Part shown: positions 13,001 to 44,050 of the stretch, one piece after another
How the letters are laid out: each line of letters starts with the position of its first letter
Numbering within the stretch: the stretch's first letter is position 1
Assembly: GCA_937872925.1 (NCBI GenBank)
Contig: CALMUT010000068.1
Coordinates: 1-64,000 of the forward strand
Length of the DNA: 64,000 nucleotides
Direction of reading: 5' to 3'
DNA from: an uncultured Myxococcales bacterium
Lineage (GTDB): Bacteria > Myxococcota_A > Polyangia > Polyangiales > Polyangiaceae
The notes under the pieces: model-generated
The model's database searches: none
What the model saw: only the letters and a program-made list of their open reading frames with translations
Told to the model about the DNA's origin: nothing
Made by a program: the position numbers and the translations under genes

Positions 13001-13017
13001 GGCTTTGCGAGGGTGTA

Positions 13018-13046
13018 GCGCAATTGAAAATGGTTTTCAATTGCGC
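13018..13046 (-). promoter_or_regulatory. Fur-box-like perfect palindrome upstream of feoAB
   Basis: The arms gcgcaattgaaaa and ttttcaattgcgc are exact inverted repeats of 13 bp around a 3-bp centre (tgg). The core TTGAAAATGGTTTTCAA closely resembles Fur operators of the TGAAAATnATTTTCA type. It sits just upstream of the feoA start, where a bound Fur-Fe2+ repressor would block the promoter. On the feo strand a TTGAAA within it is followed 17 bases later by TACACC, a possible -35/-10 pair. AT content is sharply higher than in the surroundings. Confidence 0.8.
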
Positions 13047-13201
13047 AAAATCCGCGTCCAAATCCGCGCAGATGCGGAAATCCTGCATCTTTGTTGGAAC
13101 GCGCGCCCGGTGCGCGTGCCCGGACGCTGTTGTGGCACGCCGCACGCTGGCATTGCCGTTCTGCGGCCGACCGGCTAGAAACAGCTGCCGCCCCGGGGCG
13201 C

Positions 13202-14182
13202 TCAGGGCGTGAGCCGCGCGCGCGCGTCGCGGATCGCCGAAGCCAAGTTGTGCCCGCCCGTTGACCGGGGATGCACCCGCAGCACCTGGCGCAGCGTATC
13301 GAGCATCTCGGCCGCCGAGCCGTAGCGCCGCGCGGGATTGGGCTCCAGAGCGCGCTGGATGGCGGTGGACAAGTTGAGCGGCAGATCCATGACCCTGCTG
13401 GCCAACAGGGGCACCCGCGGGCTTTGCACCATGCGCAAGACCTCTACATCCGTGGCCGCCTGAAACAGTCGCGCGCCCGCGTAGGCTTCCCACAATACGA
13501 TGCCCAAGCTGTACAGATCTGATTGCGGCGTTGGATCCTGTCCCACGGCCATCTCCGGCGCGAGGTAGCTGAGTTTGCCTTTGAGCATGTCGGGCTGCGT
13601 GATGCGTCCGCGGTCCATCGCGCGCGCCATCCCGAAATCCGCAAGCTTCGTCACGCCAACCACGTCGAGCAGAATGTTCGGCGGGGAGACATCACGATGC
13701 AGTACGGCAATCGTCTCGCCGGCTTCGTTCGTGCCGGTGTGTGCGTTGTCCAGCGCGCGCAGTACCTCAACGCCGATGGCGGTCACCATGGGCCACGGCG
13801 GGCGTTTGCCTTGGTCTGTGAAGCTGGAGACGTAGTGCCCGAAGTGAATGCCCTCCACCCACTCCGTCACCAGGTAGTGCACCCCCGCCGCGTCCACGCC
13901 GAAGTCGTGGATTTGCACGATGTTCGGATGGCGCAGGCGCGCGCCCACCCGCGCTTCTTCGATGAACATCGCGATGGCGTCGGGGTACTGGTTGAACTGC
14001 TCGTGAATGCGCTTGATGGCCACGGTGCGTCGGATCCCGTGGGCGCCGTAGGTCAGCGCTTTCCAGACCTGCGCCATGCCGCCTTCGCCCACGCACTCCA
14101 CTAGAGCGTATTTGCCGTCGACGATCGCGCCGGGCTGATCGGCGGCTGCTGCTGAAGAAGGATCACTCACGCGGTCGGGCAT
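13202..14182 (-). CDS. Soluble Ser/Thr protein kinase
   Basis: 326 residues, essentially only a Hanks-type kinase domain. It has glycine loop VGEGGMAQVW, Lys57 (VAIKRIH), catalytic loop HRDVSPPN (Ser replaces the usual Lys), DFG in LADFGMARAMDRG, APEMA, and a DLYSLGIVLWEAYAG helix. No TM helix or C-terminal sensor domain is present, so it is probably cytoplasmic and its signal input is unknown. It reads leftward, away from feoA, and the 155-bp gap between them contains the Fur-like palindrome. Confidence 0.93.
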   Translation of the reverse strand: MPDRVSDPSSAAAADQPGAIVDGKYALVECVGEGGMAQVWKALTYGAHGIRRTVAIKRIHEQFNQYPDAIAMFIEEARVGARLRHPNIVQIHDFGVDAAGVHYLVTEWVEGIHFGHYVSSFTDQGKRPPWPMVTAIGVEVLRALDNAHTGTNEAGETIAVLHRDVSPPNILLDVVGVTKLADFGMARAMDRGRITQPDMLKGKLSYLAPEMAVGQDPTPQSDLYSLGIVLWEAYAGARLFQAATDVEVLRMVQSPRVPLLASRVMDLPLNLSTAIQRALEPNPARRYGSAAEMLDTLRQVLRVHPRSTGGHNLASAIRDARARLTP

Positions 14183-24410: not shown

Positions 24411-24570
24411 TCTGCCCGCACGGCGGACGCTGAGATCGTCGGGCGCTCCTGCCGCGCAAGCTGTGCGCGTGCGCGCCGTCTCCCGCAACCGCTGCGCGTG
24501 TGCGGTGACAAGTTAGGCTCAGAACGCTGCGGTCTGAGTCGTGCATGCCCGCTGCGCCGGAGGGAACAGC

Positions 24571-29154: not shown

Positions 29155-29622
29155 GTGTCCGAGGTCAGTCGCTGGTCCCGCCCGCGCGCATTCCTCCGCA
29201 TCGTCGCGGTCATGGGCCTTTTGCTGCTTGCCACGTGGACCACGCGGCGCAGCCTCGGCTTTGCAGAGCCCGAGCCTCACGAGTCTTGTCCAGAACGACT
29301 CTCCCGTCGCTATCTGCCCTTGAAGCCGCACCTGCCCAGTAGCGGTGTGATTGGCTACATCGGGCCGGAGTTGACTGAAGACGGCTGCAACTCGAAGTTC
29401 ATGGCGCAATACGTGCTCGCGCCGCTGCTTGTCACGCATGTTTGGGAAGAGAACATCCGGGCCGTCGCTCGCCGCACGGACTTCGTCGTTCCCGTCACCC
29501 TGCCGCTGGTCATCGTGGATCAGGCCGAACCGGAAGCGGCGAACTGGATCCGCGATAGTCCCCAGTTCTCGCTATTGATGGACTTTGGCGACGGCGTCCT
29601 GCTCTACGGGCGCGCGCGATGA
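29155..29622 (+). CDS. Small membrane-anchored protein, first gene of glycan run
   Basis: 155 residues from the GTG at 29155 (GTG 29146 and ATG 29212 are alternatives). One N-terminal TM helix (FLRIVAVMGLLLLATW) is followed by an exported domain of about 125 residues with two conserved-looking Cys (HESCPERLSR, TEDGCNSKFMAQYVLAPLLV). The segment GVIGYIGPELTEDG and the end QFSLLMDFGDGVLLYGRAR recall small proteins found beside GT-C glycosyltransferases. The stop overlaps the next gene by four bases, so the two probably work together. Confidence 0.72.
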   Translation: MSEVSRWSRPRAFLRIVAVMGLLLLATWTTRRSLGFAEPEPHESCPERLSRRYLPLKPHLPSSGVIGYIGPELTEDGCNSKFMAQYVLAPLLVTHVWEENIRAVARRTDFVVPVTLPLVIVDQAEPEAANWIRDSPQFSLLMDFGDGVLLYGRAR

Positions 29623-31055
29623 CCACGGCGCTTCAGGTCATCTTGCTCCTATTTGTGCCCTTGGTCACCGGCGTGCTGATCGTGCAGAAGGCGCTGGGCC
29701 GGGTCAGCCCAACGGGCACGCTGCCGCTCGGCCTTGGACTCGGCCTCGGGCTCTGCGGGCTTTTGGCGTTTGTCTCTCTCGTTGTCGTCGACACAGTGGT
29801 GTTGGCTTGGGAGTTGGCGCTCTTTGCGCTGGTCGTATTCTGGAGCGCCAAAGGCAGCCCATCGAAAACGTATCCACGAATCGCGGAACGGCCGACGCCC
29901 GCCGGGCGTTCGTTGCTACTGGCCGCGAGCCTTCTTGTCGCCATCTGCGTGGGGATTTTCATCGTGCAGGCGAGACAGTCGCCCCACGGCGGCTGGGACG
30001 CCTGGGACTTCTGGAATATGCGCGCGCGCTTCTTCCATCGCGGAGGCGAAGCTTGGGCCAACACGTTCTCGCAGATCCCGTGGTGGTCGCATCCGGAGTA
30101 CCCAGTGCTGCAACCCGCCATGGTGGCTCGAGGGTTTCGGGTGCTGAGCAGTGAGACGGTGCTCGTCCCGATGCTGCTCGGCTTCGTCTTCACCTTTGCG
30201 GCGGTGAGCGTTCTCTATTTCGGGGTCAGCACGCTGCGAGGGCGCAGCCAGGGGTTGCTTGCGGCCATCGTGCTGTGTTGCTCGCCCTACTTCCTGTATC
30301 ACGGCACTGAGCAGTACGCAGATAACCCCCTTGCGTTCTTTTTCCTGGCTTCGGTCGTCTGCGCCGCGCTGTATGACCATCGCGAGGGCCGCTGTTCCAG
30401 CGCGCTCTTGCTCAGCGGCCTCTTCGCGGGACTCGCGACGTTCTTGAAGAACGAGGGGTTGATGTTCTTTGTCTGCTTTGCGTGTGCACGCAGCGTGTGG
30501 GTGTGGCGCAAACGCGGGCGGGCGGAGTGGAAACACCAGGCGTGGACCTTCATGGCTGGCGCCCTGCTGCCACTGACCGCCACGGCCTTCTTCAAATTCA
30601 ACTACGCCGTGATGCCCGACAACGCGGAATTCTACACGCGACAGTGGAAGGAATGGGACCGCGGATTCGTCGAGCATGTCCTGGCCAACGCGTCGGACGC
30701 GAAGCGCTATCGGGGATTCTTCCGCGCTTGGGGCCATCACCTCGTAAGTTTCGACGCATGGGTCGTGCCGCTGGCGTACCTACTTCCGGCCTACGGCGTG
30801 ATCATGGGGCGGGACCCCAATCGCCCACGTGGCATGATTGCTACGATGTTGGGCACCTTCGCGCTTCAAGCCTTGGGGGTGTCGTTGCTATTTTTGCTGT
30901 GGTCCACCTACGACATTTTCGAACATATGGACGCGCTCGGTCGCCTACTGTTGCAGATGCTGCCCACGGTGCTGTTCGTGCTGTTCGCTGCGGTGAAGAC
31001 GCCGTTCGAGGTTGAACTATTGCCGGATGAAGACGCGGCGGCACCTTTAGGATGA
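29619..31055 (+). CDS. GT-C fold membrane glycosyltransferase
   Basis: 478 residues with about 11-12 TM helices. The first large outer loop carries GGWDAWDFWNMRARFFHRGG (near residue 124), the Asp-containing loop expected of GT39/ArnT-like enzymes that use polyprenyl-phosphate sugars, and HPEYPVLQP. Later come HGTEQYADNPLAFFFLASVV and FLKNEGLMFFVCFA. It would transfer a lipid-linked sugar on the outer face of the inner membrane; acceptor unknown. It overlaps both neighbours by four bases. Confidence 0.85.
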   Translation: MTTALQVILLLFVPLVTGVLIVQKALGRVSPTGTLPLGLGLGLGLCGLLAFVSLVVVDTVVLAWELALFALVVFWSAKGSPSKTYPRIAERPTPAGRSLLLAASLLVAICVGIFIVQARQSPHGGWDAWDFWNMRARFFHRGGEAWANTFSQIPWWSHPEYPVLQPAMVARGFRVLSSETVLVPMLLGFVFTFAAVSVLYFGVSTLRGRSQGLLAAIVLCCSPYFLYHGTEQYADNPLAFFFLASVVCAALYDHREGRCSSALLLSGLFAGLATFLKNEGLMFFVCFACARSVWVWRKRGRAEWKHQAWTFMAGALLPLTATAFFKFNYAVMPDNAEFYTRQWKEWDRGFVEHVLANASDAKRYRGFFRAWGHHLVSFDAWVVPLAYLLPAYGVIMGRDPNRPRGMIATMLGTFALQALGVSLLFLLWSTYDIFEHMDALGRLLLQMLPTVLFVLFAAVKTPFEVELLPDEDAAAPLG

Positions 31056-32218
31056 GTATGGCGGGGCCGCGCACTCTGTCCTACGAAGACCTGGTCGAGG
31101 CCTACAACCAACGTCTTGGATCCGTCCTGCGTGGATTCGATTCAGGTGTGGTGGGACTTGAGAGTTGGGTGCCCACCTCCGAGCCCCTTTCGAGCGTAGC
31201 CGGCTTGCTGGACGCAACGCGAGCCGCGGGTGAAGCGGGACTGACCGTGCTGATGACCCCAGAGAACTACGCGATTCACAGCTCCGATCAGTGGGCACAG
31301 CTTGGCGCGCGTCATGGCGCGTTCTCGGTTTCCAGCGATGGAAGCTGCGCGCGCTTGGTGTTTTCGTTCCAGGCGACCGAGCCGAGATCTTCCGTCGCTC
31401 CGCAAGGCGGGGGTTCCGCGGGAGCCGCTGTGTCCAAACGCCGCACAGCGGACGGCGCTGCGGGCTTGCCTCCCGAACCCGAACGCTTGCCCGCCGCGTA
31501 CCGAGCCAATGTAATCGAGGCGGCCAGAACCTGCGCATGGGAGGGCTATCTGGAAGACACAGCGGGTGCTGCTGTGATGACCCACGTTCAGGCCACCGAC
31601 GCAAACTGGCGGCTGGAGGCCCTGGTGGGTGCAGACCACGTCGTTCTGCATGCAAGGCACCACGGAGCCGCTGCTGAAGATGAGCGCGGAGTGTTGGAAC
31701 TTCTATGTCGCGCTGCGCGTCACAAGCCTATCCTGGAGTGGGCCGATCATGGCGCCCTCGTCGTCATGGAGCGTTCCCGAGACGCGAGGGGCGCGGCCGG
31801 CGTTCCGGGGGTGCCCACCCCAGAGAACACGTCGCAGTTATTCGCCCGCGCCAACGCCCTGTGCCGCGCGCTTTTCGCGAGGTACTGCGAGCTGACCGGC
31901 TATGTGCAGACCGACAATCGCTTCGATCCGCGCGCCAGCGCTGACTGGCTGCGGCTAACGGCCGAGCAACGCCTCGAACGTGTGCAGGCCGAGTTTGCCG
32001 CGGCGTGCGCCGCGGCCGGCATCGCAGAAGGCCACGCGGAGGTCGCGGAACTGAAAGACGCCAGCCGCGTGGTGATCCGCCTCAGCGAAGCAGTCGCCCC
32101 AAGTCGGCGGGGCAGTCTCTTGTTTCGCCTGGAACGCGAGCTTTCCGAACGCGTAGAGCCGTCTCTGAGCGTGGAACGGGACGCACGCAAGGACATCAAC
32201 CAGATCCGTCGCCTTTGA
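31052..32218 (+). CDS. Unrecognised soluble protein of the glycan cluster
   Basis: 388 residues, no signal or TM helix. Residues 30-110 contain ESWVPTSEPLSSVAGLLDAT and AGLTVLMTPENYAIHSSDQW, then HGAFSVSSDGSCARLVFSFQ, an alpha/beta pattern. A Ser/Ala/Gly linker separates this from an alpha/beta middle (AVMTHVQATDANWRLEALVG) and a helical acidic end closing in ERDARKDINQIRRL. I do not recognise the family. Translation is coupled to the glycosyltransferase (ATGA overlap), and the radical SAM gene follows after 44 bp. A scaffold or regulatory role is possible, but nothing proves one. Confidence 0.78.
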   Translation: MSMAGPRTLSYEDLVEAYNQRLGSVLRGFDSGVVGLESWVPTSEPLSSVAGLLDATRAAGEAGLTVLMTPENYAIHSSDQWAQLGARHGAFSVSSDGSCARLVFSFQATEPRSSVAPQGGGSAGAAVSKRRTADGAAGLPPEPERLPAAYRANVIEAARTCAWEGYLEDTAGAAVMTHVQATDANWRLEALVGADHVVLHARHHGAAAEDERGVLELLCRAARHKPILEWADHGALVVMERSRDARGAAGVPGVPTPENTSQLFARANALCRALFARYCELTGYVQTDNRFDPRASADWLRLTAEQRLERVQAEFAAACAAAGIAEGHAEVAELKDASRVVIRLSEAVAPSRRGSLLFRLERELSERVEPSLSVERDARKDINQIRRL

Positions 32219-32262: not shown

Positions 32263-33378
32263 GTGTCGGATAGCCCTGCAGATCTCATCCTCGACGGTAC
32301 TAAGCTCGCTTGGCACCTCGACCGGGTTGCCGCCTGGCAGCGCGGTGAACGTATCGCTCCGATCACCATCGACATGGCGTTGACGCGGGCTTGCAACTAC
32401 GCCTGCCATTTTTGCTACGCGATGCTGCAGGAGAACGAGCGCAGTCAGATCACCAAACAGGTGATCACGGACTTCTTGGACGACGCGGCAGAGATCGGCG
32501 TGCGAGGCGTCAGCCTCGTCTCCGATGGGGAGAGCACGATCAGCCCCGTCTTCGTCGATGCGGTTCGCCACGGCAGTGAGTGCGGTCTGTCCATGGCCTG
32601 CGGAACGAACGGCTTCGTGCTGACCGAGGCCAAGGCGGAGCAGGTGCTGCCCCATCTGACATATTTGCGCATCAACATCTCTGCTGGAGAGCCCGCGCGC
32701 TACGCCGAGATCATGGGCGCCAAGGAGGAGTGGTTCCATCGGGTGTGCGAAAACATCCGCGCCATGGTCGCCATCAAAAAGCGGCACAATCTGCCGGTCA
32801 CCATCGGCATGCAGATGGTCCTCATGCCGCAGTATCGCGACCAGATCCTGCCCCTCGCGCGCTTGGGTAAGGAGCTCCGGCCCGACTACCTGGTGATCAA
32901 GCATTGCAGTGACGACGAAGATGGCAGCCTGGGCGTCGACTACGGCGCGTATGAGGCATTGCACGACGAACTTCTAGCGGCCGAAGCGTTAAGCGACGCC
33001 GAATACCGAGTGCAAGTGAAGTGGTCGAAGATCCGAACCGGGGACAAGCGCAGCTATCAGCGCTGCTACGGTCCTCCCTTCATGTTGCAGATCTCCGGCT
33101 CCGGACTGGTGGCTCCTTGCGGCATGCTTTTCAATCAACGCTACGAAAAGCTGCATATCGGCAACATCTGTCAGCAACGATTCAAAGATATCTTCCACAG
33201 CGATCGCTACTGGGAGGTGATGCGCTACTTGGCGTCGCCTCGCTTTAATGCCCAGAAGATGTGCGGCAGCCTTTGCCTGCAGCACAAAGTCAACGAAGTG
33301 CTGGACGGCGTGCAGAAGGGTCGCCTGCCTCTGGTAGCGCAAGCCGGCCCACCCCCCGCTCATGAAAACTTCGTATGA
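32263..33378 (+). CDS. Radical SAM protein with SPASM-like C-terminus
   Basis: 371 residues from a GTG. The cluster-binding motif is CNYACHFC at about residues 44-51 (C-x3-C-x2-C). The barrel continues with GVSLVSDGESTISPVFVDAV and ACGTNGFVLTEAKAEQVLPH. The C-terminal part has CYGPPFMLQISGSGLVAPCG, then LHIGNI and MCGSLCLQHKVNEVLDG, which gives Cys ligands for an auxiliary Fe-S cluster as in SPASM/twitch enzymes. In a sugar cluster such an enzyme could modify a sugar or a small peptide; the substrate is unknown. The stop overlaps the GT2 start. Confidence 0.9.
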   Translation: MSDSPADLILDGTKLAWHLDRVAAWQRGERIAPITIDMALTRACNYACHFCYAMLQENERSQITKQVITDFLDDAAEIGVRGVSLVSDGESTISPVFVDAVRHGSECGLSMACGTNGFVLTEAKAEQVLPHLTYLRINISAGEPARYAEIMGAKEEWFHRVCENIRAMVAIKKRHNLPVTIGMQMVLMPQYRDQILPLARLGKELRPDYLVIKHCSDDEDGSLGVDYGAYEALHDELLAAEALSDAEYRVQVKWSKIRTGDKRSYQRCYGPPFMLQISGSGLVAPCGMLFNQRYEKLHIGNICQQRFKDIFHSDRYWEVMRYLASPRFNAQKMCGSLCLQHKVNEVLDGVQKGRLPLVAQAGPPPAHENFV

Positions 33379-34130
33379 GGCGCGCAGTGACCGCCAAGAC
33401 AGCGACTATCACCGTGATCGTGCCGGCCTTGGACGAAGAGTTGCACATCGAAGCCGCCGCCGCAGAAGTCACCGAAGCGGTGTCCGCGCGCTTTTTAGAT
33501 TGGGAAATCCTTCTGTTCAACGATGGCAGCCGTGACCGAACCGGCCCATTGATGGATCAGATCGCCGCGCGCGACCCTCACGTGCGCGTGGTGCACAATG
33601 AACGTTCGCGAAACCTTGGGGGCGTTTACAAGCAGGGCCTGCAAATGGCGCGTTTTGAATACGTGCTGATGGTCCCGGGGGACAACGAAAACCCAGCGAC
33701 GGCGCTGCATGCCCCGCTTGCCGCCGTGGGGCTGGCCGACATCGTGTTGCCCTTTCCCGAGGACAACGCCGTGCGTTCCGCCTTCCGCAACACGCTTTCG
33801 GGCGCGTATACGAAGACCGTCAACCTGCTCTTCGGTTTGGAACTGCCGTACTATAACGGCACAGTGATCCACCGTACGAATCTGGTACGTAGTGTCGACA
33901 TCGGTACAGACAGTTTTGCCTATCAAGCGGAGGCGCTGGTGAAGCTTTTGTCGGCGGGCTGCAGCTTCGTTCCTGTCGGCATCACGGTTGTGCCGCGCGC
34001 GGGTCGGAAGTCTAAGGCCCTGCGATTGAAAAACCTGCTGGGCGTTGCGGCGACCTTTGCCCGGGTATTTCTAGAAGTGCGCGTGTTGCGGCGATTGCCC
34101 GATCCGATTCCCGGCCTGGAGCGCCCATGA
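33375..34130 (+). CDS. Glycosyltransferase family 2
   Basis: 251 residues, GT-A fold of the dolichol-phosphate-mannose-synthase-like subgroup. It has VIVPALDEELHIEAA at the start, LLFNDGSRDRTGPLMDQIAA, NLGGVYKQGLQMARFEYVLM and PGDNENP in place of the usual DxD. The C-terminal part includes QAEALVKLLSAGCSFVPVGI and a basic stretch. No TM helix is fused, so it acts at the cytoplasmic membrane face, perhaps loading a sugar on a polyprenyl phosphate used by the GT-C enzyme upstream (inference). It overlaps the genes on both sides. Confidence 0.93.
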   Translation: MRRAVTAKTATITVIVPALDEELHIEAAAAEVTEAVSARFLDWEILLFNDGSRDRTGPLMDQIAARDPHVRVVHNERSRNLGGVYKQGLQMARFEYVLMVPGDNENPATALHAPLAAVGLADIVLPFPEDNAVRSAFRNTLSGAYTKTVNLLFGLELPYYNGTVIHRTNLVRSVDIGTDSFAYQAEALVKLLSAGCSFVPVGITVVPRAGRKSKALRLKNLLGVAATFARVFLEVRVLRRLPDPIPGLERP

Positions 34131-35707
34131 CCTACCTGGAGAAGATCCTTTCCAGAGACGCGCTTTCCCAGGCCCTGCAGCTCGTTCGCGAGCGCGGGCA
34201 GAGCGTGGTGCAGTGCCATGGTTGCTTCGACATTCTGCACCCCGGGCACCTGCGCCACTTGACCTGGGCGCGAAGGCAAGCGGACGTCTTGGTGGTCACC
34301 GTCAGTGCCGACAGCGTGGTTCAGAAGGGGCGCAATCGCCCGTATGTGCCTGAGCGGCTGCGGGCGGAGAGCTTGGCGGCGCTCGAATTCGTCAGCTTCG
34401 TGTGTATCGACGACGGGGATTGGGCAGGGCCGGCGCTTACTTTCGTGCGGCCTGACGTCTATGTGAAGGGCAAGGAGTTCGAACAGGTCTTCGATGGACG
34501 ATTCGGTCGCGAGCGCCGCTTAGTTGAAGAGTACGGCGGGCGGGTGCTCTTCAGTTCTGGAGACGTTGTCTACTCGTCCACGCACATCATCGATAGCCAC
34601 AAACACGAACTCGAACCGGTGGAAGAACAAGTCGCCGCGTTTTGCGGACGCCATGCGATCACGGAGCAGCGCGTTCGGGAGCTTTTGGACGCTCTGGCGG
34701 AAAAGACGGTTGCCGTGGTGGGGGAAACGATCGTCGATACCTATGTGTATGCTGAGGCATTGGGCATGAGCGCCGAGGCGCCCGTTTTGGTGGTGCGCCC
34801 GCGCGACAGCGAGACCTTCATCGGGGGCGCGGCCATTGTCGCACAGCATCTGAGCGGACTCGGGGCGACGCCACACTTGCTTTCGCTGGTGGGGCGGGAC
34901 GAGGCCGCTGATCGCGTCCGCAACGACTTGGTGCAGCGGGGCATCGTTGCGGAGCTACTCGAAGACCCCGGACGCCCAACGATCGTGAAGACCCGCTACA
35001 TTTCTGAGGGCAAGAAGCTGCTCAACGTGAATGTGTTCAGCGACCACGATCTGGATCAGGTGACAGAACAGGCGCTTCTGTCGCGTCTTCAGGCCCTTGG
35101 GGACCGCATGGATGCCGTAGTCGTGACGGACTTTGGCTACGGTGTGGTCACGGACCGCGTGATTGAATGGGCGCGCGAGCTGAAACGCCGCCGCGGGGTT
35201 GCCGTGGTTGGCGATGTGCAGTGTAGCACTCAACTAGGCAACGTCCGACGCATGCGAGGTTTGAGCGTGATCGCTCCGTCCGAGCGCGAAGCTCGGCTCT
35301 CCCTCTGCGACCGCGCGAGCGGCATCGCCGACTTAGGCGCGGAACTTCTGCTGCAGGCGGAGACAGACTGCGTCTTAGTGACTTTGGGTGCTCGGGGAAT
35401 GATGCTGCTCGAGCTTGGCGAAGGCGTGGAGCGGGAGACTCTCAAAGACAAGCATCTGGCCGAGGTCAAGTCGGCCCTATCCATCGAATACTTGCCCAGC
35501 ATGGTGGCCACTCCCGTGGACCCCATGGGTGCGGGGGACGCCATGCTGGCGACCCTGGCGGCGAGCCTTGCGGCCGACGCTTCCCCCGCGTTGGCGGCAT
35601 TCGTGGCCATGGGCGCAGCCGCGGTTGCCGCCTCCCACCTTGGCAATGTCGCAGTCACCCGCGCTGAGCTCCTAGCGGTGCTCTTTCCCGCGTCGAGAGT
35701 TGCCTGA
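34127..35707 (+). CDS. HldE-like heptose-1-phosphate nucleotidyltransferase/kinase, domains in swapped order
   Basis: 526 residues. The N-terminal nucleotidyltransferase (residues about 20-160) has CHGCFDILHPGH with the HxGH motif at 38-41, then YVPERLRAESLAALEFV and VKGKEFEQV. The C-terminal PfkB-type kinase (about 190-520) has VGETIVDTYVYAEALGMS, GGAAIVAQHLSGLGATPHLL, and the ATP/catalytic-base motif DPMGAGDAM near 464-472. E. coli HldE has the kinase first, so the fusion is reversed. It would phosphorylate a heptose 7-phosphate at C1 and later nucleotidylate the heptose 1-phosphate. TGATG overlap with the next gene. Confidence 0.9.
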   Translation: MTYLEKILSRDALSQALQLVRERGQSVVQCHGCFDILHPGHLRHLTWARRQADVLVVTVSADSVVQKGRNRPYVPERLRAESLAALEFVSFVCIDDGDWAGPALTFVRPDVYVKGKEFEQVFDGRFGRERRLVEEYGGRVLFSSGDVVYSSTHIIDSHKHELEPVEEQVAAFCGRHAITEQRVRELLDALAEKTVAVVGETIVDTYVYAEALGMSAEAPVLVVRPRDSETFIGGAAIVAQHLSGLGATPHLLSLVGRDEAADRVRNDLVQRGIVAELLEDPGRPTIVKTRYISEGKKLLNVNVFSDHDLDQVTEQALLSRLQALGDRMDAVVVTDFGYGVVTDRVIEWARELKRRRGVAVVGDVQCSTQLGNVRRMRGLSVIAPSEREARLSLCDRASGIADLGAELLLQAETDCVLVTLGARGMMLLELGEGVERETLKDKHLAEVKSALSIEYLPSMVATPVDPMGAGDAMLATLAASLAADASPALAAFVAMGAAAVAASHLGNVAVTRAELLAVLFPASRVA

Positions 35708-36669
35708 TGCCGCACCCGATTTTCGATCGCAGTCGCCTTCTGCTTCGGCCGCTCGCAGAGCGCCGACATGATTTCTCTGTCGAGCAGGTGCTTTCGTTAT
35801 CCGAGTCCACGGACTTCGACGCGCCGCCTCTCGCGCGGATCGCCGAGCGTATCGTCACCGCTCGGCGTCGCAAGCGGCCGGTGATCTTGCTGCTTGGCGC
35901 ACACGTGCTGCGCTCAGGCGTTCAGCGATTCTTGATCGACTGGATGCACCGCGGCCTGTTGACCCATGTCGGAATGAATGGCGGCGCCGCGATCCACGAC
36001 TATGAGCTGGCCTTGACGGGCGGCACGACGGAGAGCGTTGCCGTCTACATCAGAGACGGGCAGTTCGGCTTCTGGACGGAAACGGGGCGCGTGAACGCCG
36101 CCGCGCGTGACGCCGTCGAGCGTGGCGTTGGATTCGGCGAGGCCTTGGGCGCGGAGATCGGCGCCGGGCGTTGCCCTCAGTCGGACCTTTCCGTGCTGTG
36201 GCAAGCCCATCGCCTTGGGATCCCCGCAACCGTGCACGTCGGAATTGGCTACGACATCGTGCACCAACACCCCAGCGCGAACGGCGCCGCCATTGGCGAG
36301 GCTAGCTATCATGACTTCTTGATCTTGGCGCACAGCGTTTCGTGTCTCGAGGGCGGGGTCGTGCTTTCCTTCGGGAGTGCCGTGATGGCGCCGGAGGTGT
36401 TTCTCAAGGCCCTGTCCATGGCGCGCAACGTGGCCCGCCAGGACGGCAGCCGCATCGCCGACTTCACCTGCGCGGTATTCGACCTGCTGGACTTGGGCTC
36501 GGACTTCTCGAAGGAGCCCGAAAAGTCTGATACGCGCTACTATTTCCGTCCCTTCAAGACCCTTCTGGTGCGCACGGTCGCGGACGGAGGAGAGAGTCAC
36601 TACGTGCGGGGCCCGCATCACGACACCGTTCGCGCACTGCATCGACATCTCGCGAGCGTGGCACCATGA
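35707..36669 (+). CDS. Uncharacterised glycan-cluster enzyme, deoxyhypusine-synthase-like pattern
   Basis: 320 residues, soluble. RPVILLLGAHVLRSGVQRFL, the motif MNGGAAIHDYELALTGGTTE, TVHVGIGYDIVHQHPSANGA and SYHDFLILAHSVSCLEGGVV look like a Rossmann-type NAD or nucleotide-binding enzyme. The order of Gly-rich loops and the HD-E-AL-x-G-x-T segment loosely recall the deoxyhypusine synthase fold, but the catalytic Lys region is not evident, so this is a weak comparison. It sits between the kinase/nucleotidyltransferase and the isomerase, which suggests a sugar-modifying role. Start ATG at 35707. Confidence 0.75.
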   Translation: MPHPIFDRSRLLLRPLAERRHDFSVEQVLSLSESTDFDAPPLARIAERIVTARRRKRPVILLLGAHVLRSGVQRFLIDWMHRGLLTHVGMNGGAAIHDYELALTGGTTESVAVYIRDGQFGFWTETGRVNAAARDAVERGVGFGEALGAEIGAGRCPQSDLSVLWQAHRLGIPATVHVGIGYDIVHQHPSANGAAIGEASYHDFLILAHSVSCLEGGVVLSFGSAVMAPEVFLKALSMARNVARQDGSRIADFTCAVFDLLDLGSDFSKEPEKSDTRYYFRPFKTLLVRTVADGGESHYVRGPHHDTVRALHRHLASVAP

Positions 36670-37247
36670 CCGCCGCGTCCAAGTACGTGGCCCGCGTGCA
36701 TGAACTGCTGGCCTCGGCGGCGGTTACAGACGGCGATGGCGGGGTTCTGAGCCTCGACGTTGGCTGCGAGCGCGTGGTCGAGCAGTTGCTTCGGGTCCGC
36801 CAGGGGCAAAGTACCGTTTTCGTGATTGGTAACGGTGGCAGCAGCGCTATCGCCGCGCACATGCAGAGCGACCTGGTCAAGAACGTTTGCGTGCGAGCAC
36901 AGGCGTTCCACGACGTTCCGCTTTTGACCGCGATCACGAATGACGACGGCTACGCTCGCGCATTCTCGGATCCGCTGGCGCTATGGGTCGCAGCGGGAGA
37001 CCTCTTGGTCGCGGTGAGTTCATCGGGTCGATCTGAAAGCATCCTGCGCGCCGTTGACGTTGCCCTCGGCGCCGGGGCCGGCGTGTGTACCCTAAGCGGA
37101 TTCGACTCAGACAATCCGCTGCGACGCCTAGGCGCCATCAACTTCCACGTGGACTCTCATGCGTACGGGCTGGTCGAAAGCGCGCATACGGTGCTGACCC
37201 ATCTCCTGACCGACGCGGCGGCTGCACGCGTTTCGCGCGACGGATGA
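36666..37247 (+). CDS. SIS-domain sedoheptulose-7-phosphate isomerase (GmhA-like)
   Basis: 193 residues. SIS fold with VFVIGNGGSSAIAAHMQSDL at about 51-70 (GNGGSxAxAxH is the GmhA signature), LLTAITNDDGYARAFSDPLA and the phosphate-binding VAVSSSGRSESILRAVDVAL. GmhA converts sedoheptulose 7-phosphate into D-glycero-D-manno-heptose 7-phosphate, the first step of heptose activation. The gene overlaps both neighbours by four bases. The late HVDSHAYGLVESAHTVLTHL matches the C-terminal helix of the family. Confidence 0.92.
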   Translation: MTAASKYVARVHELLASAAVTDGDGGVLSLDVGCERVVEQLLRVRQGQSTVFVIGNGGSSAIAAHMQSDLVKNVCVRAQAFHDVPLLTAITNDDGYARAFSDPLALWVAAGDLLVAVSSSGRSESILRAVDVALGAGAGVCTLSGFDSDNPLRRLGAINFHVDSHAYGLVESAHTVLTHLLTDAAAARVSRDG

Positions 37248-37795
37248 TGAAGCCGGGTCCCTTGGTGCACAGACCCGGGAGTGCGCGCAGCTTTGCGAGC
37301 GGCACGCCGAGGTGCGCGGCCTTCTTGGACCGTGACGGCACGTTGGTCCGCGACGTCCACTACCTTACGGATGTGGCCGAGCTTGAATTGCTTCCCGGCG
37401 CCGCTGACGCCGTGCGCCTGCTCTCTGAGACTCGCCTGGTGATCGTCGTGACAAACCAGTCCGCCCTGGCGCGGGGCATGCTTTCCGAGGCGGGCCTGGA
37501 GCTGCTGCATAGGACTCTCTTCCAGCGCCTGGCGGCGTTTGGAGCGCCTCTGGACGCCATTTATACCTGTCCGCATCTCGGGGACGGGCCGGCGGGGGCA
37601 TGCGAATGCCGCAAGCCGAAACCAGGTCTGCTACTACGGGCAGCCGTGGACTTTGACTTGCGTCTGGAAGATTGCGTGCTGTTCGGAGATTCCGAGCGTG
37701 ATCTCGTAGCGGCCGCTGCCGCTAGAGTACGTGGGTTTGCTGTAGAAAAGAATCGGTCCGGAGGACTGTTGGAAGGAATTCGATGCCTGAGCTAA
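37244..37795 (+). CDS. Heptose-1,7-bisphosphate 7-phosphatase (GmhB-like, HAD family)
   Basis: 183 residues. HAD motif I is FLDRDGTLVRD (Asp29, Asp31), motif II VVTNQSALARG, motif III region CECRKPKPGLL and motif IV FGDSERDLVAA. The Cys/His cluster CPHLGDGPAGACEC is the structural zinc site typical of GmhB and histidinol-phosphate phosphatases. It would remove the 7-phosphate so that the nucleotidyltransferase domain of the HldE-like protein can act. ATG at 37244 overlaps the isomerase stop; its own stop lies 13 bp inside the epimerase gene. Confidence 0.92.
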   Translation: MMKPGPLVHRPGSARSFASGTPRCAAFLDRDGTLVRDVHYLTDVAELELLPGAADAVRLLSETRLVIVVTNQSALARGMLSEAGLELLHRTLFQRLAAFGAPLDAIYTCPHLGDGPAGACECRKPKPGLLLRAAVDFDLRLEDCVLFGDSERDLVAAAAARVRGFAVEKNRSGGLLEGIRCLS

Positions 37796-38805
37796 ACCGT
37801 ATTCTGGTCACCGGGGGCGGCGGCTATGTGGGAGCGCGGCTGGTGCCTCGCCTTTTGGAGCGCGGCTACCTGGTGCGGGTGCTGGATACGTTCTGGTTCG
37901 GTCGTGACGCGCTTGCAGAAGTGGAGGGTCACGCCAGCCTCGACATCATTGAAGGCGACATTCGAGACGGCAGGAGCGTGGACCGCGCTTTGGCAGATGT
38001 CGACGGAGTGATTCATCTTGCGTGCATTTCCAACGACCCATCCTTCGACTTGGACCCCGAGCTAGGTCGCAGCATCAACTTCGACGCATTCAAGCCCTTG
38101 GTGGATGCCGCTGTGACGGCTGGCGTCCAGCGCTTCATCTATGCTTCTTCTTCCAGCGTATACGGGGTGAGCGAGGAGCCGGATGTGAAGGAAGATCATC
38201 CACTGAATCCGTTGACGGACTACAGCAAGTACAAAGCAGCTTGCGAGCCTGTGTTGCTCGGCCGGGCGTCCGAGGAGTTCTGTCCCATCGTGATCCGACC
38301 TGCGACGCTGTGTGGGTACTCCCCGCGCCAGCGTATGGACCTGACCGTGAATATCTTGACGAATCACGCGGTGAATCGCGGCAAGATCACCGTGCTGGGG
38401 GGCGAGCAGAAGCGCCCGAATCTGCACATCGAAGACATGGTGGACTTGTATTTGTTGCTACTGACTTTGAAGACCGAACGCGTGCGCGGTCGCGTCTACA
38501 ACGCAGGCTACGAGAATCACACCGTGGCCGAGCTTGCACAGCAGGTACAAGGGGTCGTCGACAGCTTGGCGCCCACCCCGGTGACCGTCGAGACGACCAA
38601 ATCCGACGACGAACGCTCGTATCATATTTCTTCGGAGCGGATCCGTCGTGAGCTGAAATTCGAGCCGAAGCGCAGCATCGAGCGCGCCGTGCACGACGTG
38701 ATCGCCGCGTTTGCTGCGGGTCGCCTTCAGGACTCCATGGACGACGACCGCTACTATAATGTGCGGCGGATGAAGCGCGTCTTCTTGGAAGCAAAAGAGG
38801 CATGA
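37783..38805 (+). CDS. NAD-dependent sugar epimerase/dehydratase
   Basis: 340 residues, extended short-chain dehydrogenase. NAD motif VTGGGGYVGARLVPRLLERG (GxxGxxG at 13-19), EGDIRDG, YASSSSVYG with the catalytic Ser/Thr position, and YSKYK giving Tyr147 and Lys151. It is not a clear HldD (the family-specific C-terminus is absent) and is nearer to general UDP-glucose-4-epimerase or dehydratase types. In this cluster it may epimerise or oxidise the nucleotide-heptose (inference). Confidence 0.9.
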   Translation: MPELNRILVTGGGGYVGARLVPRLLERGYLVRVLDTFWFGRDALAEVEGHASLDIIEGDIRDGRSVDRALADVDGVIHLACISNDPSFDLDPELGRSINFDAFKPLVDAAVTAGVQRFIYASSSSVYGVSEEPDVKEDHPLNPLTDYSKYKAACEPVLLGRASEEFCPIVIRPATLCGYSPRQRMDLTVNILTNHAVNRGKITVLGGEQKRPNLHIEDMVDLYLLLLTLKTERVRGRVYNAGYENHTVAELAQQVQGVVDSLAPTPVTVETTKSDDERSYHISSERIRRELKFEPKRSIERAVHDVIAAFAAGRLQDSMDDDRYYNVRRMKRVFLEAKEA

Positions 38806-39800
38806 ACACACCCGACGATGCGCGACTACTGCGGGACCTCCTGCTCATACGCATCGTCGAAGAGGAAATCGCGAAGCGCTATCCCGAACAGGAAATGCGC
38901 TGCCCGACCCATTTGTGCATCGGGCAAGAAGCCACCGCGGTGGGCGTGTGTCGCGCGCTACAGGAAACCGACGTCGTATTCTCCGGCCACCGATCCCACG
39001 GCCACTACCTGGCCAAGGGCGGCGATTTGACGCGGATGATCGCCGAGATCTACGGTCGCGTATCGGGCTGTTCCCGCGGAAAAGGCGGCAGCATGCATCT
39101 GATCGACCCGTCCGTCGGTTTTCTCGGCGCCGTGCCCATCGTGTCGAGCACGATCCCAATGGCGGTGGGCGCCGCCTTTGGGTTTGCGTTGCGCGGCGAG
39201 TCTCGCGTGGCGGCCGTGTTCTTTGGGGACGCGGCTGTAGAGGAGGGCGTGTTCCACGAGAGCCTCGCATTTGCGATGTTGGAACGCCTTGCAGTGATCT
39301 TTGTCTGCGAGAATAACCTGTATTCGGTGCAAACGCCCCTGAGCGCGCGACAACCGTCGAGCCGCAGCCTTTGCGACTTAGCGCGAGGGCACGGCATGAC
39401 GGCTGAACACGCCGACGGCAACGACGTCTTTGCGGTGCGCTCGGTTGCGCGGGCCGCGGTGGAGCGGGCGAGGCAAGGGGGCGGGCCGACGTTTCTGGAG
39501 TTGCCGACTTACCGTTGGCTCGAACACGTTGGCCCCGACGAAGACGGAGCGCTTGGTTATCGAAGCGCCGAAGAAATCAACGCATGGAAGGAGCGTTGCC
39601 CAGTCGCCCACGCCCAAAAAGTGCTGCTTGAGCGCGAAGTGGTCGACGCTGCGGGCATTGGCGCTCTGCGTCAGAACATAGAAGACCAAGTGCAGCAGGC
39701 GTTTGCCGCTGCCAAATCAGCGCCGGTGCCGGACGCTGCGGAGCTTTTGACGCACGTATTCACCGGGGGTCGGACGCCCATCGATCGGGAGAGCCTGTGA
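38802..39800 (+). CDS. Thiamine-diphosphate E1 dehydrogenase, alpha subunit-like
   Basis: 332 residues, full length for PDH/BCKDH E1-alpha. It contains CPTHLCIGQEATAVG, FSGHRSHGHYLAKGGD, GCSRGKGGSMHLID, and the ThDP motif starting at FFGDAAVEEG (about residue 142) and ending at CENNLYS (about 171). The usual GDG triplet reads GDA here. The phosphorylation-loop region YRWLEHVGPDED follows the family. No E2 or E3 gene is present in this window. Coupled to the beta subunit by a GTGA overlap. See the finding on a two-carbon branch. Confidence 0.92.
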   Translation: MNTPDDARLLRDLLLIRIVEEEIAKRYPEQEMRCPTHLCIGQEATAVGVCRALQETDVVFSGHRSHGHYLAKGGDLTRMIAEIYGRVSGCSRGKGGSMHLIDPSVGFLGAVPIVSSTIPMAVGAAFGFALRGESRVAAVFFGDAAVEEGVFHESLAFAMLERLAVIFVCENNLYSVQTPLSARQPSSRSLCDLARGHGMTAEHADGNDVFAVRSVARAAVERARQGGGPTFLELPTYRWLEHVGPDEDGALGYRSAEEINAWKERCPVAHAQKVLLEREVVDAAGIGALRQNIEDQVQQAFAAAKSAPVPDAAELLTHVFTGGRTPIDRESL

Positions 39801-40846
39801 CCCGCGAGCTCAGCTTCGCCCAGGCCCTATGCGAAGCGACGGACTTGTGTCTGAGCCGCGATCCCAGCGTGTACGTGATGGGACTCGGTGTGCCCGACGT
39901 CAAAGGTCTGTTCGGGAGCACCGCGGGGCTAGTGAAGAAACACGGGCCGCGCCGGGTGCGAGACATGCCCACCGCGGAAAACGGAATGACCGGCGTTGCT
40001 CTCGGGTCGGCACTCGTGGGCATGCGGCCGATCTTGACGCACCAGCGGGTGGATTTTGCGCTGCTCGCCATGGAACAGATCGTGAACCAAGCAGCCAAAT
40101 GGCACTACATGTTTGGTGGCAACGCGCGGGCGCCCATGGTGATGCGTCTGATTGTGGGCCGGGGCTGGGGGCAGGGACCCCAGCACGCGCAGAGCCTGCA
40201 GGCTTGGTTCGCGCACGTTCCCGGATTGCGTGTGGCGATGCCCACCACCGCCTACGACGCAAAGGGCATGCTGATCTCCGCCGTCGAGGACGATGGCCCG
40301 GTGGTCTTGATTGAGCATCGCTGGCTCTACAATCTGCGCAGCGAGGTGCCCGAAGAAATCTATCGGGTGCCGCTGGATCGCGCGCGTGTCGCGCGCGTGG
40401 GCGGCGACGTGACGGTTGCGGCGACGAGCTACATGACGGTCGAGGCCCTGCGCGCGGCGCAGCAGCTTTCCAGGCGTGGGATCGAGATCGAAGTCGTTGA
40501 CCTGCGCAGCATCAATCCTTTGGACATCGACGCGCTGCTGGCTTCGGTGACGAAGACGGGACGGTTGGTCGTCGCAGACACCGGAACGACGAGCTTCGGG
40601 GTGGGGGCCGAGGTGGTCGCGCGTGTCAGCGAGGAAGCATTTTCAGAACTGAACGCTCCGCCACGGCGCGTCGCGTCGCCGGATGCACCGTCACCGAGCG
40701 CCCCCAGCTTGTCGATCGAATATTTCCCGCGCGCCCTCGAGATTGAATGCGCCGTGCACGCATGCCTCGGACTGCCACCGCCCCTCGCGGAGCCGTGCGC
40801 ACACCCCCTGGATATTCCGGATCCCGATTTCGTAGGACCGTTTTAG
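39797..40846 (+). CDS. Thiamine-diphosphate E1 dehydrogenase, beta subunit-like (transketolase fold)
   Basis: 349 residues from a GTG that overlaps the alpha-subunit stop. It has the pyrimidine-binding domain MPTAENGMTGVALGSALVGM with its conserved Glu, RPILTHQRVDFALLAMEQIV, NQAAKWHYMFGG and GRGWGQGPQHAQSLQAWFAH. The transketolase C-terminal domain contains VTVAATSYMTVEALRAAQQL and VDLRSINPLDIDALLASVTK. It forms the alpha2beta2 E1 with its neighbour and decarboxylates a 2-oxo acid. It is the last gene of the run; its C-terminus is Pro-rich. Confidence 0.93.
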   Translation: MTRELSFAQALCEATDLCLSRDPSVYVMGLGVPDVKGLFGSTAGLVKKHGPRRVRDMPTAENGMTGVALGSALVGMRPILTHQRVDFALLAMEQIVNQAAKWHYMFGGNARAPMVMRLIVGRGWGQGPQHAQSLQAWFAHVPGLRVAMPTTAYDAKGMLISAVEDDGPVVLIEHRWLYNLRSEVPEEIYRVPLDRARVARVGGDVTVAATSYMTVEALRAAQQLSRRGIEIEVVDLRSINPLDIDALLASVTKTGRLVVADTGTTSFGVGAEVVARVSEEAFSELNAPPRRVASPDAPSPSAPSLSIEYFPRALEIECAVHACLGLPPPLAEPCAHPLDIPDPDFVGPF

Positions 40847-41842: not shown

Positions 41843-44050
41843 TCATCGACCGGTTGGTGACAGACTCACCCGGAAGGTTCCAATGCTTGGGGAGCGGCGA
41901 AACTCAAGCACTGGGTGGTTGTCGGTGTGCAGGGACGCTACCGGTTGTGACCGCCAGCGCCTGAGTTGTGCCTCACCCTGAAGCAGCCGCTGCTCGAACA
42001 GCGCGTGCGTGCGCAGGGCGGTTTGCGCGAGCTGAAGGGAGACTGGCCCGCGCTGCTGTGGGTTGGCACGCACTGGCCTGGCGCTGAAGACGACGATGGC
42101 CTCGCCCTTTGCCAACGCAAGGGCGCGCATTTCTTCAAAGGATTGGGCCGCACTCGCTAGCACCACGGCGGCGTCTTCGCCCCACACGTATTGCACCAGC
42201 ACGCCGTCGTCACGCAGCGCCCGCCTCGCTTGGGCGAAGAATTCAGCGGTGGCGAGGCTTGCGCCTTGGGTCCGGTATTGGTGCACGCTGACGATGACGG
42301 CATCCTGTTGCCGCACCTGTCCATGCAAGTAGCGCCGGCCGTCCATCACCAGCGCATGGAGATTCGGCGCAAGGTGCACCGCATCGTTGTAGCCCTGGTA
42401 GCGCCACAGTGAATCGAATACCGCCGGCAGCACGTCCACGCCGTCCACGCGCGTCGCGCCGAAGCCGCGCGCTATGGCGCCGGCGCTGATTCCGTACCCC
42501 ATGCCGAGGACTGCCACTTGCTCCAAGCGCGGTGCAAAGTGGGCGCTCGTGATGGCGAGGTAGCGCTGGGTATCTGCGGTGCTGGTTCGGCCGAGTTCCC
42601 CGGCCAGGCGGGAGCCGGTGTTGAAGATCGCAAGGCGACCACCCGGCAGCGCAGCCGCCTCGAAAATGCCGCTGGCGTCTTCCTGCACGACCGCACGAAG
42701 CTGCGGATGGACCACGCCTAGGGCCGGACCGCGCTTCCAAAGTGCAAGGGCGGCGAACCCGCCGACGACGCCGACGATGAGGGCGCGACCACCACGCGCC
42801 GCGCCGCGCCTTGAGGCGATGACCGCGAAAAATGCGCACAAGACTACGTGCAACACCAGGATCCCTCGGGTCCCGATACGTCCGCTCAGAAAGTACGCCG
42901 TAGAGAGCGCGCCTAGTGCGCCCGTGACCGTGTTGCACGCGACTGCAGTTCCCACCGACCGGAGCTGCGCTGTGCGTTCGATTAAGGACAAGGCCAGCGG
43001 GAATAGCGTGCCCATGCAAATGGCGGGCAAGATCACAGCAGTCAGGACGAACGCAGCACGAACAAGGGGCGCGCTGCGCACGTAGTCGGGACTGTCCGGG
43101 TGGAGCGAGAGCAGCGCTGGGTCCGCGAGCACCAATGCCGTGGCCAGGCTCACGACCGCGCAGGCAAAACTGAGCGTGAGGGTCTGCTCTGCGGACCGCC
43201 GTTGGGTCGCTCTATTCGCGATCATGCCTCCCGCGCCGAGGCCGAAAAGGATGCAGCTCAAGGCGATGGCCGTCACGAAAACGCGGTCTCCGACCAGAAG
43301 TCCGAAAAGCCGCACCCAGGCGACCTGCGCCGACAGGACCAGAAAGCCGGAAGTGGCGGCGATGGCGAGGCCCAGTCGCAGTTGGGCCGCGGCAGCGCTC
43401 CTCGCGTCTGGCGTTGCCGCGGGTTTGGGCGCTTCGCGCTCGGGCAGAGTAGCCGTCATGCTCAGGGCCCAGGCCGCGGCGGCGACTCCAGCCAGGGCGG
43501 CCACGGCAGCTGTGGCAGTAGCGCCTAGCCGCGCGACGCCCCAAGTAGCGAGCAGCGGCCCAAGGGCAGCCCCAAATAGGTTGACCGCGTACAACAGCGA
43601 AATCCGGATCCTGCCAGATGCGGCGCGCGCCACCAGTGGAAGCGTGGCACCGAAGGCTGCGCTTGCCGGGCCAAACACGACGCAAGCGAGTAGGAAATCC
43701 CCGGCTACGCTCGGTCCGGGCAACCACAATCGCAAGGCGACCAGGGAATCGCCCCCGTGGAAGCACCAAGCGACGGCCGACATTCCGAGCAGCGCCGCGC
43801 CCAGCTCCGCGTAGCCATAGGCCCGTAGCGATGACTTTGGCGAGGGCGGTAGGCGCCGCGCCGCCAGCCAGGCGCCCGCTGCATGGCCAAGCAGGAACGC
43901 CGTCACAACGCAGGACAGAGACCGACTGGTGCTGCCAAGGATCAGGGTCAGCCCGCGCACCCACAGCGCCTCGAAGGCCAGGGCGGCCGCGCCTGACAAG
44001 AAGAAGGGAATGAACAGGAGACCAGCGAGCGGATAGGTGCGGGCCGGCAT
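41843..44050 (-). CDS. Fused membrane transporter-like/spermidine-synthase-like protein
   Basis: 735 residues. The N-terminal half has about 12-14 TM helices in the pattern of SpeE-fused membrane proteins (FLSGAAALAFEALWVRGLTL, GLGAGGMIANRATQRRS). The C-terminal half is a spermidine-synthase-like methyltransferase fold (residues about 470-700): VVQEDASGIFEAAALPGGRL, VAVLGMGYGISAGAIARGFG, VDGVDVLPAVFDSL and DGRRYLHGQVRQQDAVIVSV. The aminopropyltransferase active-site Asp pair is not clear, so polyamine synthesis is doubtful. The stop lies 4 bp from the converging CAP gene. Confidence 0.85.
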   Translation of the reverse strand: MPARTYPLAGLLFIPFFLSGAAALAFEALWVRGLTLILGSTSRSLSCVVTAFLLGHAAGAWLAARRLPPSPKSSLRAYGYAELGAALLGMSAVAWCFHGGDSLVALRLWLPGPSVAGDFLLACVVFGPASAAFGATLPLVARAASGRIRISLLYAVNLFGAALGPLLATWGVARLGATATAAVAALAGVAAAAWALSMTATLPEREAPKPAATPDARSAAAAQLRLGLAIAATSGFLVLSAQVAWVRLFGLLVGDRVFVTAIALSCILFGLGAGGMIANRATQRRSAEQTLTLSFACAVVSLATALVLADPALLSLHPDSPDYVRSAPLVRAAFVLTAVILPAICMGTLFPLALSLIERTAQLRSVGTAVACNTVTGALGALSTAYFLSGRIGTRGILVLHVVLCAFFAVIASRRGAARGGRALIVGVVGGFAALALWKRGPALGVVHPQLRAVVQEDASGIFEAAALPGGRLAIFNTGSRLAGELGRTSTADTQRYLAITSAHFAPRLEQVAVLGMGYGISAGAIARGFGATRVDGVDVLPAVFDSLWRYQGYNDAVHLAPNLHALVMDGRRYLHGQVRQQDAVIVSVHQYRTQGASLATAEFFAQARRALRDDGVLVQYVWGEDAAVVLASAAQSFEEMRALALAKGEAIVVFSARPVRANPQQRGPVSLQLAQTALRTHALFEQRLLQGEAQLRRWRSQPVASLHTDNHPVLEFRRSPSIGTFRVSLSPTGR

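Follow-up and report, generated by a model that had tools for sequence, protein, structure and literature searches.

A myxobacterial gene cluster that may build a branched heptose with a pyruvate dehydrogenase-type E1 pair

A stretch of 64,000 nucleotides from an uncultured Myxococcales bacterium (assembly GCA_937872925.1, contig C68, CALMUT010000068.1, positions 1 to 64,000; the window below) carries an operon in which genes for heptose-type activation enzymes stand beside those for the alpha and beta subunits of a thiamin diphosphate (ThDP)-dependent E1 enzyme of the pyruvate dehydrogenase (PDH) kind. This raises the question of what an E1 pair does among sugar genes. A first reading of the sequence (the original prediction) had proposed that the pair adds an acyl branch to an activated heptose. 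Here we show that the pair belongs to a separate clade of E1 enzymes, most of them linked to heptose-type genes, and we suggest that it may branch a 4-keto-heptose.

The operon and its E1 pair

The nine open reading frames (ORFs) lie at 32263-40846 on the plus strand, in a genome of 9.39 Mb in 377 contigs that is 95% complete. Successive ORFs overlap by 1 to 13 bases throughout, a layout like that of a translationally coupled operon. The Pfam matches are radical S-adenosylmethionine (SAM) plus SPASM, GT2, CTP_transf_like plus PfkB, SIS, HAD, Epimerase, E1_dh, and Transket_pyr plus Transketolase_C, so that both the close packing of the nine genes and the domain assignments of the original prediction are borne out. 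It had also proposed a search for co-occurrence of the HldE-like, 320-residue and E1 genes, and the set does recur in two other Myxococcota genomes. In one from the same genus (G001; locus L046) eight of the nine genes are present in the same order, with 57-78% identity, and the HAD gene was not found; in one from another family of the order (G026; locus L047) all nine are present, again in the same order. Literature searches, limited to open-licence papers, turned up nothing relevant on heptose clusters that contain an E1 pair or a radical SAM/SPASM enzyme.

There is no E2 domain and no E3 match on the window contig. The E2 matches of the host lie elsewhere, the two strongest beside the E1 genes of contig C103 and on the contig that carries 2-oxoglutarate dehydrogenase (C114). 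We compared the window pair with its closest relatives in the phylum and on plasmids, together with their surroundings. In an IQ-TREE analysis of the concatenated alpha and beta subunits, 15 pairs form a clade (support 100/100) apart from the E2-linked E1s, and within it there is an inner HldE-linked group of seven (95.5/89); the corresponding FastTree values are 0.70 and 0.94. An E2 probe found no adjacent E2 at any of the 15 clade loci; outside the clade it found an E2 close to many E1 loci. A few E1s outside the clade (for example that on C79 of the host genome) also have no E2 nearby, so the absence of E2 is by itself non-specific.

Heptose-type activation genes, counted as ADP type (HldE) or GDP type (GHMP kinase plus nucleotidyltransferase), are present at 10 of the 15 clade loci and at none of 18 other E1 loci (Fisher p = 3e-5, uncorrected for relatedness); they were detected with a homology panel partly drawn from the same clusters, and one 5-kb locus was excluded. 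Clade pairs lie beside HldE and SIS genes in genomes G158, G186 and G130 and on a plasmid of Azospirillum oryzae, and beside GHMP kinase and nucleotidyltransferase genes in G102, G062 and on pDMC1 of Solidesulfovibrio magneticus, the last of these also having a SIS gene.

Active-site residues were tabulated with human PDH alpha and Bacillus PDH beta as references. The ThDP-type Asp and Asn motifs, the His of loop A, the beta Glu and the beta His are retained in all 15 clade members. Loop A, which reads YRWLEHVGPDED in the window protein, is mostly of the EHxG type in the clade and two residues longer, whereas in E2-linked members it is mostly GHSM or GHxx-D. Two further signatures mark the clade: in E1 alpha, Pro replaces Phe, Ala or Gly two residues ahead of the active-site His (HL), and E1 beta has HxR against LMT or ILF in the others. 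Loop A of PDH contacts the lipoyl domain, and its alteration would fit an E1 that has lost its coupling to E2 and whose acceptor pocket is more polar.

We consider it very probable that the E1 pair is E2-free and sugar-linked. The original prediction had an E1 alpha/beta pair without E2 or E3 alongside, and this holds for the contig and, as regards E2, for the surroundings of all 15 clade members. It had also named two findings that would speak against it. The first was a place for the pair inside the metabolic dehydrogenases with no sugar link, and we found a separate clade with heptose-type neighbours. The second was a set of co-regulated E2 and E3 partners encoded elsewhere, and we judge that this does not apply to the pair.

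The accompanying enzymes

The gene upstream of the pair encodes a short-chain dehydrogenase/reductase (SDR) whose closest solved structure is 6vo6 (129.6 bits against 112.8 for the next); a profile of nine SDR orthologues gives 186.6 against 143.3. The database title of 6vo6 is 'putative sugar-nucleotide epimerase/dehydratase', and we take it to be Cj1427, the GDP-heptose C4-dehydrogenase of Campylobacter. A segment SPRxRxDLxVN is common to the window SDR and the Cj1427-type proteins of S. magneticus and G102. The E1 cluster of S. magneticus encodes a close homologue of 6vo6 (465.7 bits against 86.3 for the next), and a gene for L-2-hydroxyglutarate oxidase (lhgO; L133 22302-23504) lies beside its SIS gene. 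Cj1427 works through a cycle of alpha-ketoglutarate to L-2-hydroxyglutarate (PMC10680097), and the presence of lhgO with the 6vo6 homologue thus fits recycling of a Cj1427-type by-product. No other single piece of evidence points as strongly to a putative 4-keto-heptose acceptor as the gene content of the S. magneticus cluster. In the window, a Cj1427-like SDR would provide such an acceptor, which strengthens the reading first proposed. Two other assignments of the SDR were rejected. Its SSSSVYG sequence and the absence of the Asp-Glu motif that marks the dehydratases speak against a 4,6-dehydratase, and a score of 67 bits with TIGR02197 (cut-off 274.6) speaks against HldD.

The activation enzymes are recognisable by their motifs. 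The HldE-like protein has both domains, with GAGD and HxGH motifs, and in the Pfam matches the kinase follows the adenylyltransferase, the opposite of the order in E. coli HldE. Its kinase is the only HldE-like one of real strength in the host genome (170.6 bits against 35.6 for the next). The HAD protein carries the DxDGT and Cys/His zinc motifs of GmhB as DRDGT and CPH...CEC. The host genome has a stronger GmhA match elsewhere, on C357 (L187 4177-9600), beside NeuB, PseF-type/cytidylyltransferase-like and, by eye, MotA-like genes. These genes suggest a flagellar or surface nonulosonate-type cluster, and the GmhA-like gene there probably serves another sugar.

The 320-residue protein, first read as an unknown enzyme, clearly belongs to the NCBIfam family GSU2086 (359.5 bits; cut-off 250). 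Profile searches with it led to ArgZ/AgrE and a LOR/SDH protein, and its weak matches in the host and in a related genome are deoxyhypusine synthases. With hhalign it pairs with deoxyhypusine synthase at a probability of 93% over residues 44-176; a Pfam scan gave no match to the family of that enzyme, PF01916. An AlphaFold2 model (predicted local distance difference test, pLDDT, 79.9; predicted template modelling score, pTM, 0.85) was aligned by VIA-align with AgrE at Z 20.0 and with deoxyhypusine synthase at Z of about 18 over about 250 residues. AgrE and deoxyhypusine synthase both use NAD. Our best guess is that the protein may act on a sugar phosphate, as an epimerase or dehydrogenase that depends on NAD. 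A SIS gene lies within 7 kb in 28 of 51 GSU2086-family loci, in most at about 0.8 kb, and a PfkB/HldE-type gene is present in 14 of the 51; a scan of the genome contigs with the window protein gave two loci only. GSU2085-GSU2087 of Geobacter have the order HldE, GSU2086, GmhA seen in the window, and insertions in hldE, GSU2086 and gmhA cause a common electrode-growth defect (-3.1, -3.2 and -3.7, respectively; PMC5585712).

Two further GSU2086-like loci came from a viral scan and were used in the fold work. On IMGVR_UViG_3300010883_000017, a phage-like contig, genes for a GSU2086-like protein (40%; L142 10001-10945) and for an HldE-like protein with the E. coli domain order (11888-13369) lie together with RmlA-like and dehydratase-like genes amid phage-like DNA-metabolism genes. 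On a second viral contig a distant GSU2086-like gene (30%; L143 488-1300) lies directly 5' of portal/head-like phage genes.

Orthologues of the radical SAM enzyme (73-78% identity) are present in only five of 237 sampled Myxococcota genomes, the host included, and all five have heptose-type clusters; in G013 the orthologue and the clade E1 pair are on separate contigs. Another is encoded on the Azospirillum plasmid, together with HldE, SIS, SDR and E1 genes. Compared with the window proteins, the radical SAM enzyme of this plasmid is much better conserved (76% identity) than its HldE (33%), SIS (39%), SDR (57%) or E1 (52-54%). AlphaFold2 modelling of the enzyme from two sequences was poor (pLDDT 49). 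By its conservation, the cluster extends upstream to a 388-aa ORF, which accompanies the radical SAM gene in other genomes as well. A homologue is found in six of six genomes or plasmids with the radical SAM orthologue and adjoins that gene in most; it lies near E1 in G013 and downstream of E1 in G026, and in L046 it was recognisable by its C-terminal part alone. The protein matches no Pfam or NCBIfam family above cut-off, aligns with the Azospirillum protein encoded directly upstream of the radical SAM gene (27% over 388 aa), and could be a substrate or a partner of the radical SAM enzyme. A PMT_2-type membrane glycosyltransferase probably extends the cluster further; it recurs in one sister cluster, L047, with two homologues (47% and 42%) just downstream of the E1 beta gene. 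Taken with the soluble GT2 protein, it suggests that the sugar may reach a surface acceptor by way of a polyprenyl-phosphate-sugar. The features are collected in Table 1.

Elsewhere in the window, 24541-26451 encodes a B12-binding radical SAM protein whose C-terminal tail is long and rich in proline. ARAGORN reports a tRNA-Ser (gga) at 42396-42481 within a minus-strand ORF (41843-44050), and one of the two may be spurious.

Table 1. Features of the cluster in the window
Feature	Coordinates	Strand	Basis
PMT_2-type membrane glycosyltransferase (GT-C like)	29619..31055	+	PF13231, 33.7 bits
388-aa protein with C-terminal ...D...(I/L)RRL motif	31052..32218	+	Conserved partner of radical SAM gene
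Radical SAM/SPASM enzyme	32263..33378	+	PF04055 + PF13186; CNYACHFC at residues 44-51
GT2 glycosyltransferase, soluble, putatively polyprenyl-phosphate-sugar synthase-like	33375..34130	+	PF00535, 57.1 bits; kept in L046 and L047
HldE-like bifunctional protein	34127..35707	+	PF01467 + PF00294; adenylyltransferase (HPGH, residue 38), then PfkB kinase (GAGD, residue 468)
GSU2086-family protein, predicted NAD-dependent enzyme, deoxyhypusine synthase/AgrE-like C-terminal fold	35707..36669	+	NF052581; AlphaFold2 model
GmhA-like SIS sugar-phosphate isomerase, divergent	36666..37247	+	PF13580, 39.5 bits
GmhB-like HAD phosphatase	37247..37795	+	NF006506, 125.5 bits; DRDGT and CPH...CECRKPKPG zinc-type motif
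SDR, probable nucleotide-heptose C4-dehydrogenase	37783..38805	+	Best structure match 6vo6; SPRxRxDLxVN segment
E1 alpha subunit (ThDP and Mg binding)	38802..39800	+	PF00676, 227 bits
Loop A of E1 alpha, YRWLEHVGPDED replacing the YRxxGHSMxD type; catalytic-type His retained	39510..39545	+	Residue table of 28 pairs; position counted from alignment
E1 beta subunit; PTAENGM Glu and QHAQSL His retained; HQRVDF clade signature	39797..40846	+	PF02779 + PF02780

A putative branching pathway and its alternatives

The gene content and its conservation, the E1 clade with its signature, the linkage to activation genes and the predicted GSU2086 fold form the established part of our results. On this basis we propose the following pathway, in which we infer every substrate, the branch position, the donor, the order of the steps and the final acceptor. 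The SIS protein would isomerise sedoheptulose 7-phosphate or a closely related ketose phosphate, the HldE-like protein would phosphorylate C1 and then transfer AMP, and the HAD protein would take off the terminal phosphate to give an ADP-heptose; the GSU2086-family protein would probably carry out an NAD-dependent epimerisation or oxidation of a sugar-phosphate intermediate. The SDR, with NAD, would oxidise C4, like Cj1427 on GDP-heptose. On ThDP, the E1 pair would decarboxylate a 2-oxo acid (pyruvate or one like it) and, with no E2 lipoyl partner, would add the two-carbon carbanion to the C4 ketone, giving a 4-C-acetyl branch and a nine-carbon sugar, as branching of 4-keto acceptors has been proposed for AviB1/AviB2. 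The radical SAM enzyme and its 388-aa partner would introduce a further modification, the GT2 protein would link the sugar to polyprenyl phosphate, and transfer to a surface acceptor would fall to the PMT_2-type enzyme. A 4-keto-heptose built by the operon and branched by the E1 pair is the best single mechanism that we can offer, and we give it an even chance of being right.

What is new here is the combination of genes; the chemistry has precedent in AviB1/AviB2, Pau11/Pau12 and YerE. AviB1/AviB2 (avilamycin) and Pau11/Pau12 (paulomycin) are PDH-like pairs encoded in antibiotic clusters, and their sugars are not heptose-derived. The window pair has some traits of the AviB1/AviB2 type, namely E1 alpha and beta subunits, intact ThDP and His residues and no E2 or E3 in the cluster. 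Unlike both of these pairs, it is accompanied by genes for heptose-type activation and by others for a Cj1427-like SDR, a GSU2086 protein and a radical SAM enzyme. In the yersiniose pathway, YerE uses ThDP to attach a two-carbon branch at C4 of a nucleotide-linked 4-keto sugar (cited in PMC4753412). This chemistry resembles the branching that we propose for the window pair. YerE is, however, a flavoprotein of another ThDP family and its acceptor is a dideoxyhexose. In GDP-heptose modification in Campylobacter jejuni, heptose activation (GmhA, kinase, phosphatase and guanylyltransferase) is followed by C4 oxidation by Cj1427, as proposed here; C. jejuni next epimerises and reduces the ketone, and PMC10680097 does not mention a thiamin enzyme.

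Several observations weigh against the proposed pathway. All three activation enzymes score below the NCBIfam cut-offs: the HldE-like protein has 212.6 against 521 (its domains 174.3 against 345 and 95.5 against 181.5), the GmhA-like protein 52.4 against 209.45 (TIGR00441) and 56.0 against 276 (NF010546), and the GmhB-like protein 125.5 against 178. The SIS isomerase retains the C-terminal His of GmhA and has Asp at the position of its Glu, both of which are catalytic in GmhA. The low scores and the Asp suggest that the sugar may differ from a standard heptose. The GmhA, HldE and GmhB types named in the original prediction are present, and are those of the lipopolysaccharide-core ADP-heptose pathway, but the cluster departs from that pathway in its sub-cut-off scores, its reversed HldE domain order and its isomerase Asp. 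The predicted E1-made branch on an activated heptose fares similarly: the tie of the E1 pair to heptose-type clusters in relatives and its place outside the E2-linked E1s stand, but the sugar is deduced from sub-cut-off enzymes, one with a changed catalytic residue. Additionally, the similarity of the SDR to 6vo6 is distant, and its identity to the S. magneticus protein is 32%. Several clade clusters encode DegT aminotransferases or an SDR annotated as GDP-L-fucose synthase, which may compete for a 4-keto sugar, and the E1 tree was built without AviB1/AviB2 sequences. Finally, a clade pair on a plasmid of Streptomyces griseofuscus (L132 13923-15969) lies beside condensation domain, acyl carrier protein (ACP) and ketosynthase genes and is likely to be an E2-free carboligase in a natural-product cluster, and a second Streptomyces homologue is found in S. 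albogriseolus. With two such members, one clearly in a polyketide/nonribosomal peptide synthetase-like cluster, the clade is not sugar-specific.

The alternative that survives best, although we think it unlikely, is that the ThDP pair acts upstream, transferring two carbons to an aldose phosphate. The unusual ketose phosphate formed in this way would be the substrate of the SIS, HldE-like and HAD proteins, and the end product would be an activated higher-carbon or odd sugar without a branch. Divergent SIS and HldE-like proteins would be expected for such a non-standard sugar phosphate. Consistent with this, five related clusters (L048-L050, L055 and L088) have a split transketolase (TktN/TktC) at the place of E1. 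L048-L050 combine it with HldE, a GSU2086 protein and an SDR 53-54% like that of the window; in the related sets of Solidesulfovibrio carbinolicus pDCAR1 and L055 a window-type SDR was not detected. The transketolase at this place suggests that a ThDP enzyme is a recurring part of the system, perhaps with the donor changed from pyruvate to a ketose or hydroxypyruvate. However, it is established chemistry that an E1 using pyruvate would yield a 1-deoxy ketose, a compound that is no substrate for an aldose-ketose isomerase, and retention of the SDR in three of the five split-transketolase clusters points to a common keto-sugar acceptor.

We also regard as rather improbable a use of another acceptor by the E1 pair, which would make a short side group, acyl or acetoin-like, for later joining to the sugar or its aglycone, as may happen with the Streptomyces members described above. 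The operon does encode a 388-aa protein and a radical SAM enzyme without an assigned substrate, but no acyl carrier, ligase or acyltransferase is among the Pfam matches of the nine-gene unit.

It is more doubtful still that the sugar, though branched, is something other than a heptose, or carries its branch elsewhere than at C4, the divergent SIS, HldE and HAD proteins using some other C5-C8 sugar phosphate. The sub-cut-off scores would agree with this, as would the change of Glu to Asp, which is typical of the isomerase group in ADP-type clusters, whereas the GDP-type SIS proteins retain Glu. Against it, where pairs of the E1 clade go with GDP-type genes, the Cj1427-type and GmhA-like proteins are nearer the standard kind.

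Lastly, a standard metabolic 2-oxo acid dehydrogenase E1 with E2 and E3 encoded elsewhere and an incidental place in the operon would be compatible with the other E2 and E3 genes of the host and with the intact ThDP and catalytic residues, but is highly improbable, because the pair differs from the metabolic E1s of PDH and branched-chain 2-oxo acid dehydrogenase in having no nearby E2, a changed lipoyl-facing loop A and a place outside the E2-linked E1s, in a fully supported clade whose members have no E2 beside them and show heptose linkage across phyla.

Returning to the branching of a 4-keto-heptose, we tentatively suggest a broader scheme, which we hold to be possible rather than probable. 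A modular pathway spread across Myxococcota, Alphaproteobacteria and Desulfovibrionales may make C4-branched, nine-carbon heptoses from both ADP- and GDP-heptose, with gene exchange changing the donor (an acetyl branch would come from an E2-free E1 pair, a hydroxyacetyl branch from a split transketolase) and with the radical SAM enzyme and the 388-aa protein adding a further modification. Related clusters are present in cultured hosts, A. oryzae and S. magneticus, which makes the claim testable. If it is true, ThDP-dependent sugar branching would reach heptoses, beyond antibiotic sugars and the dideoxyhexoses of O-antigens, and the clade would offer a sequence signature by which E2-free E1 carboligases could be recognised among genes annotated as pyruvate dehydrogenase. 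It would also give a testable role to the GSU2086 family, which affects the growth of Geobacter on electrodes.

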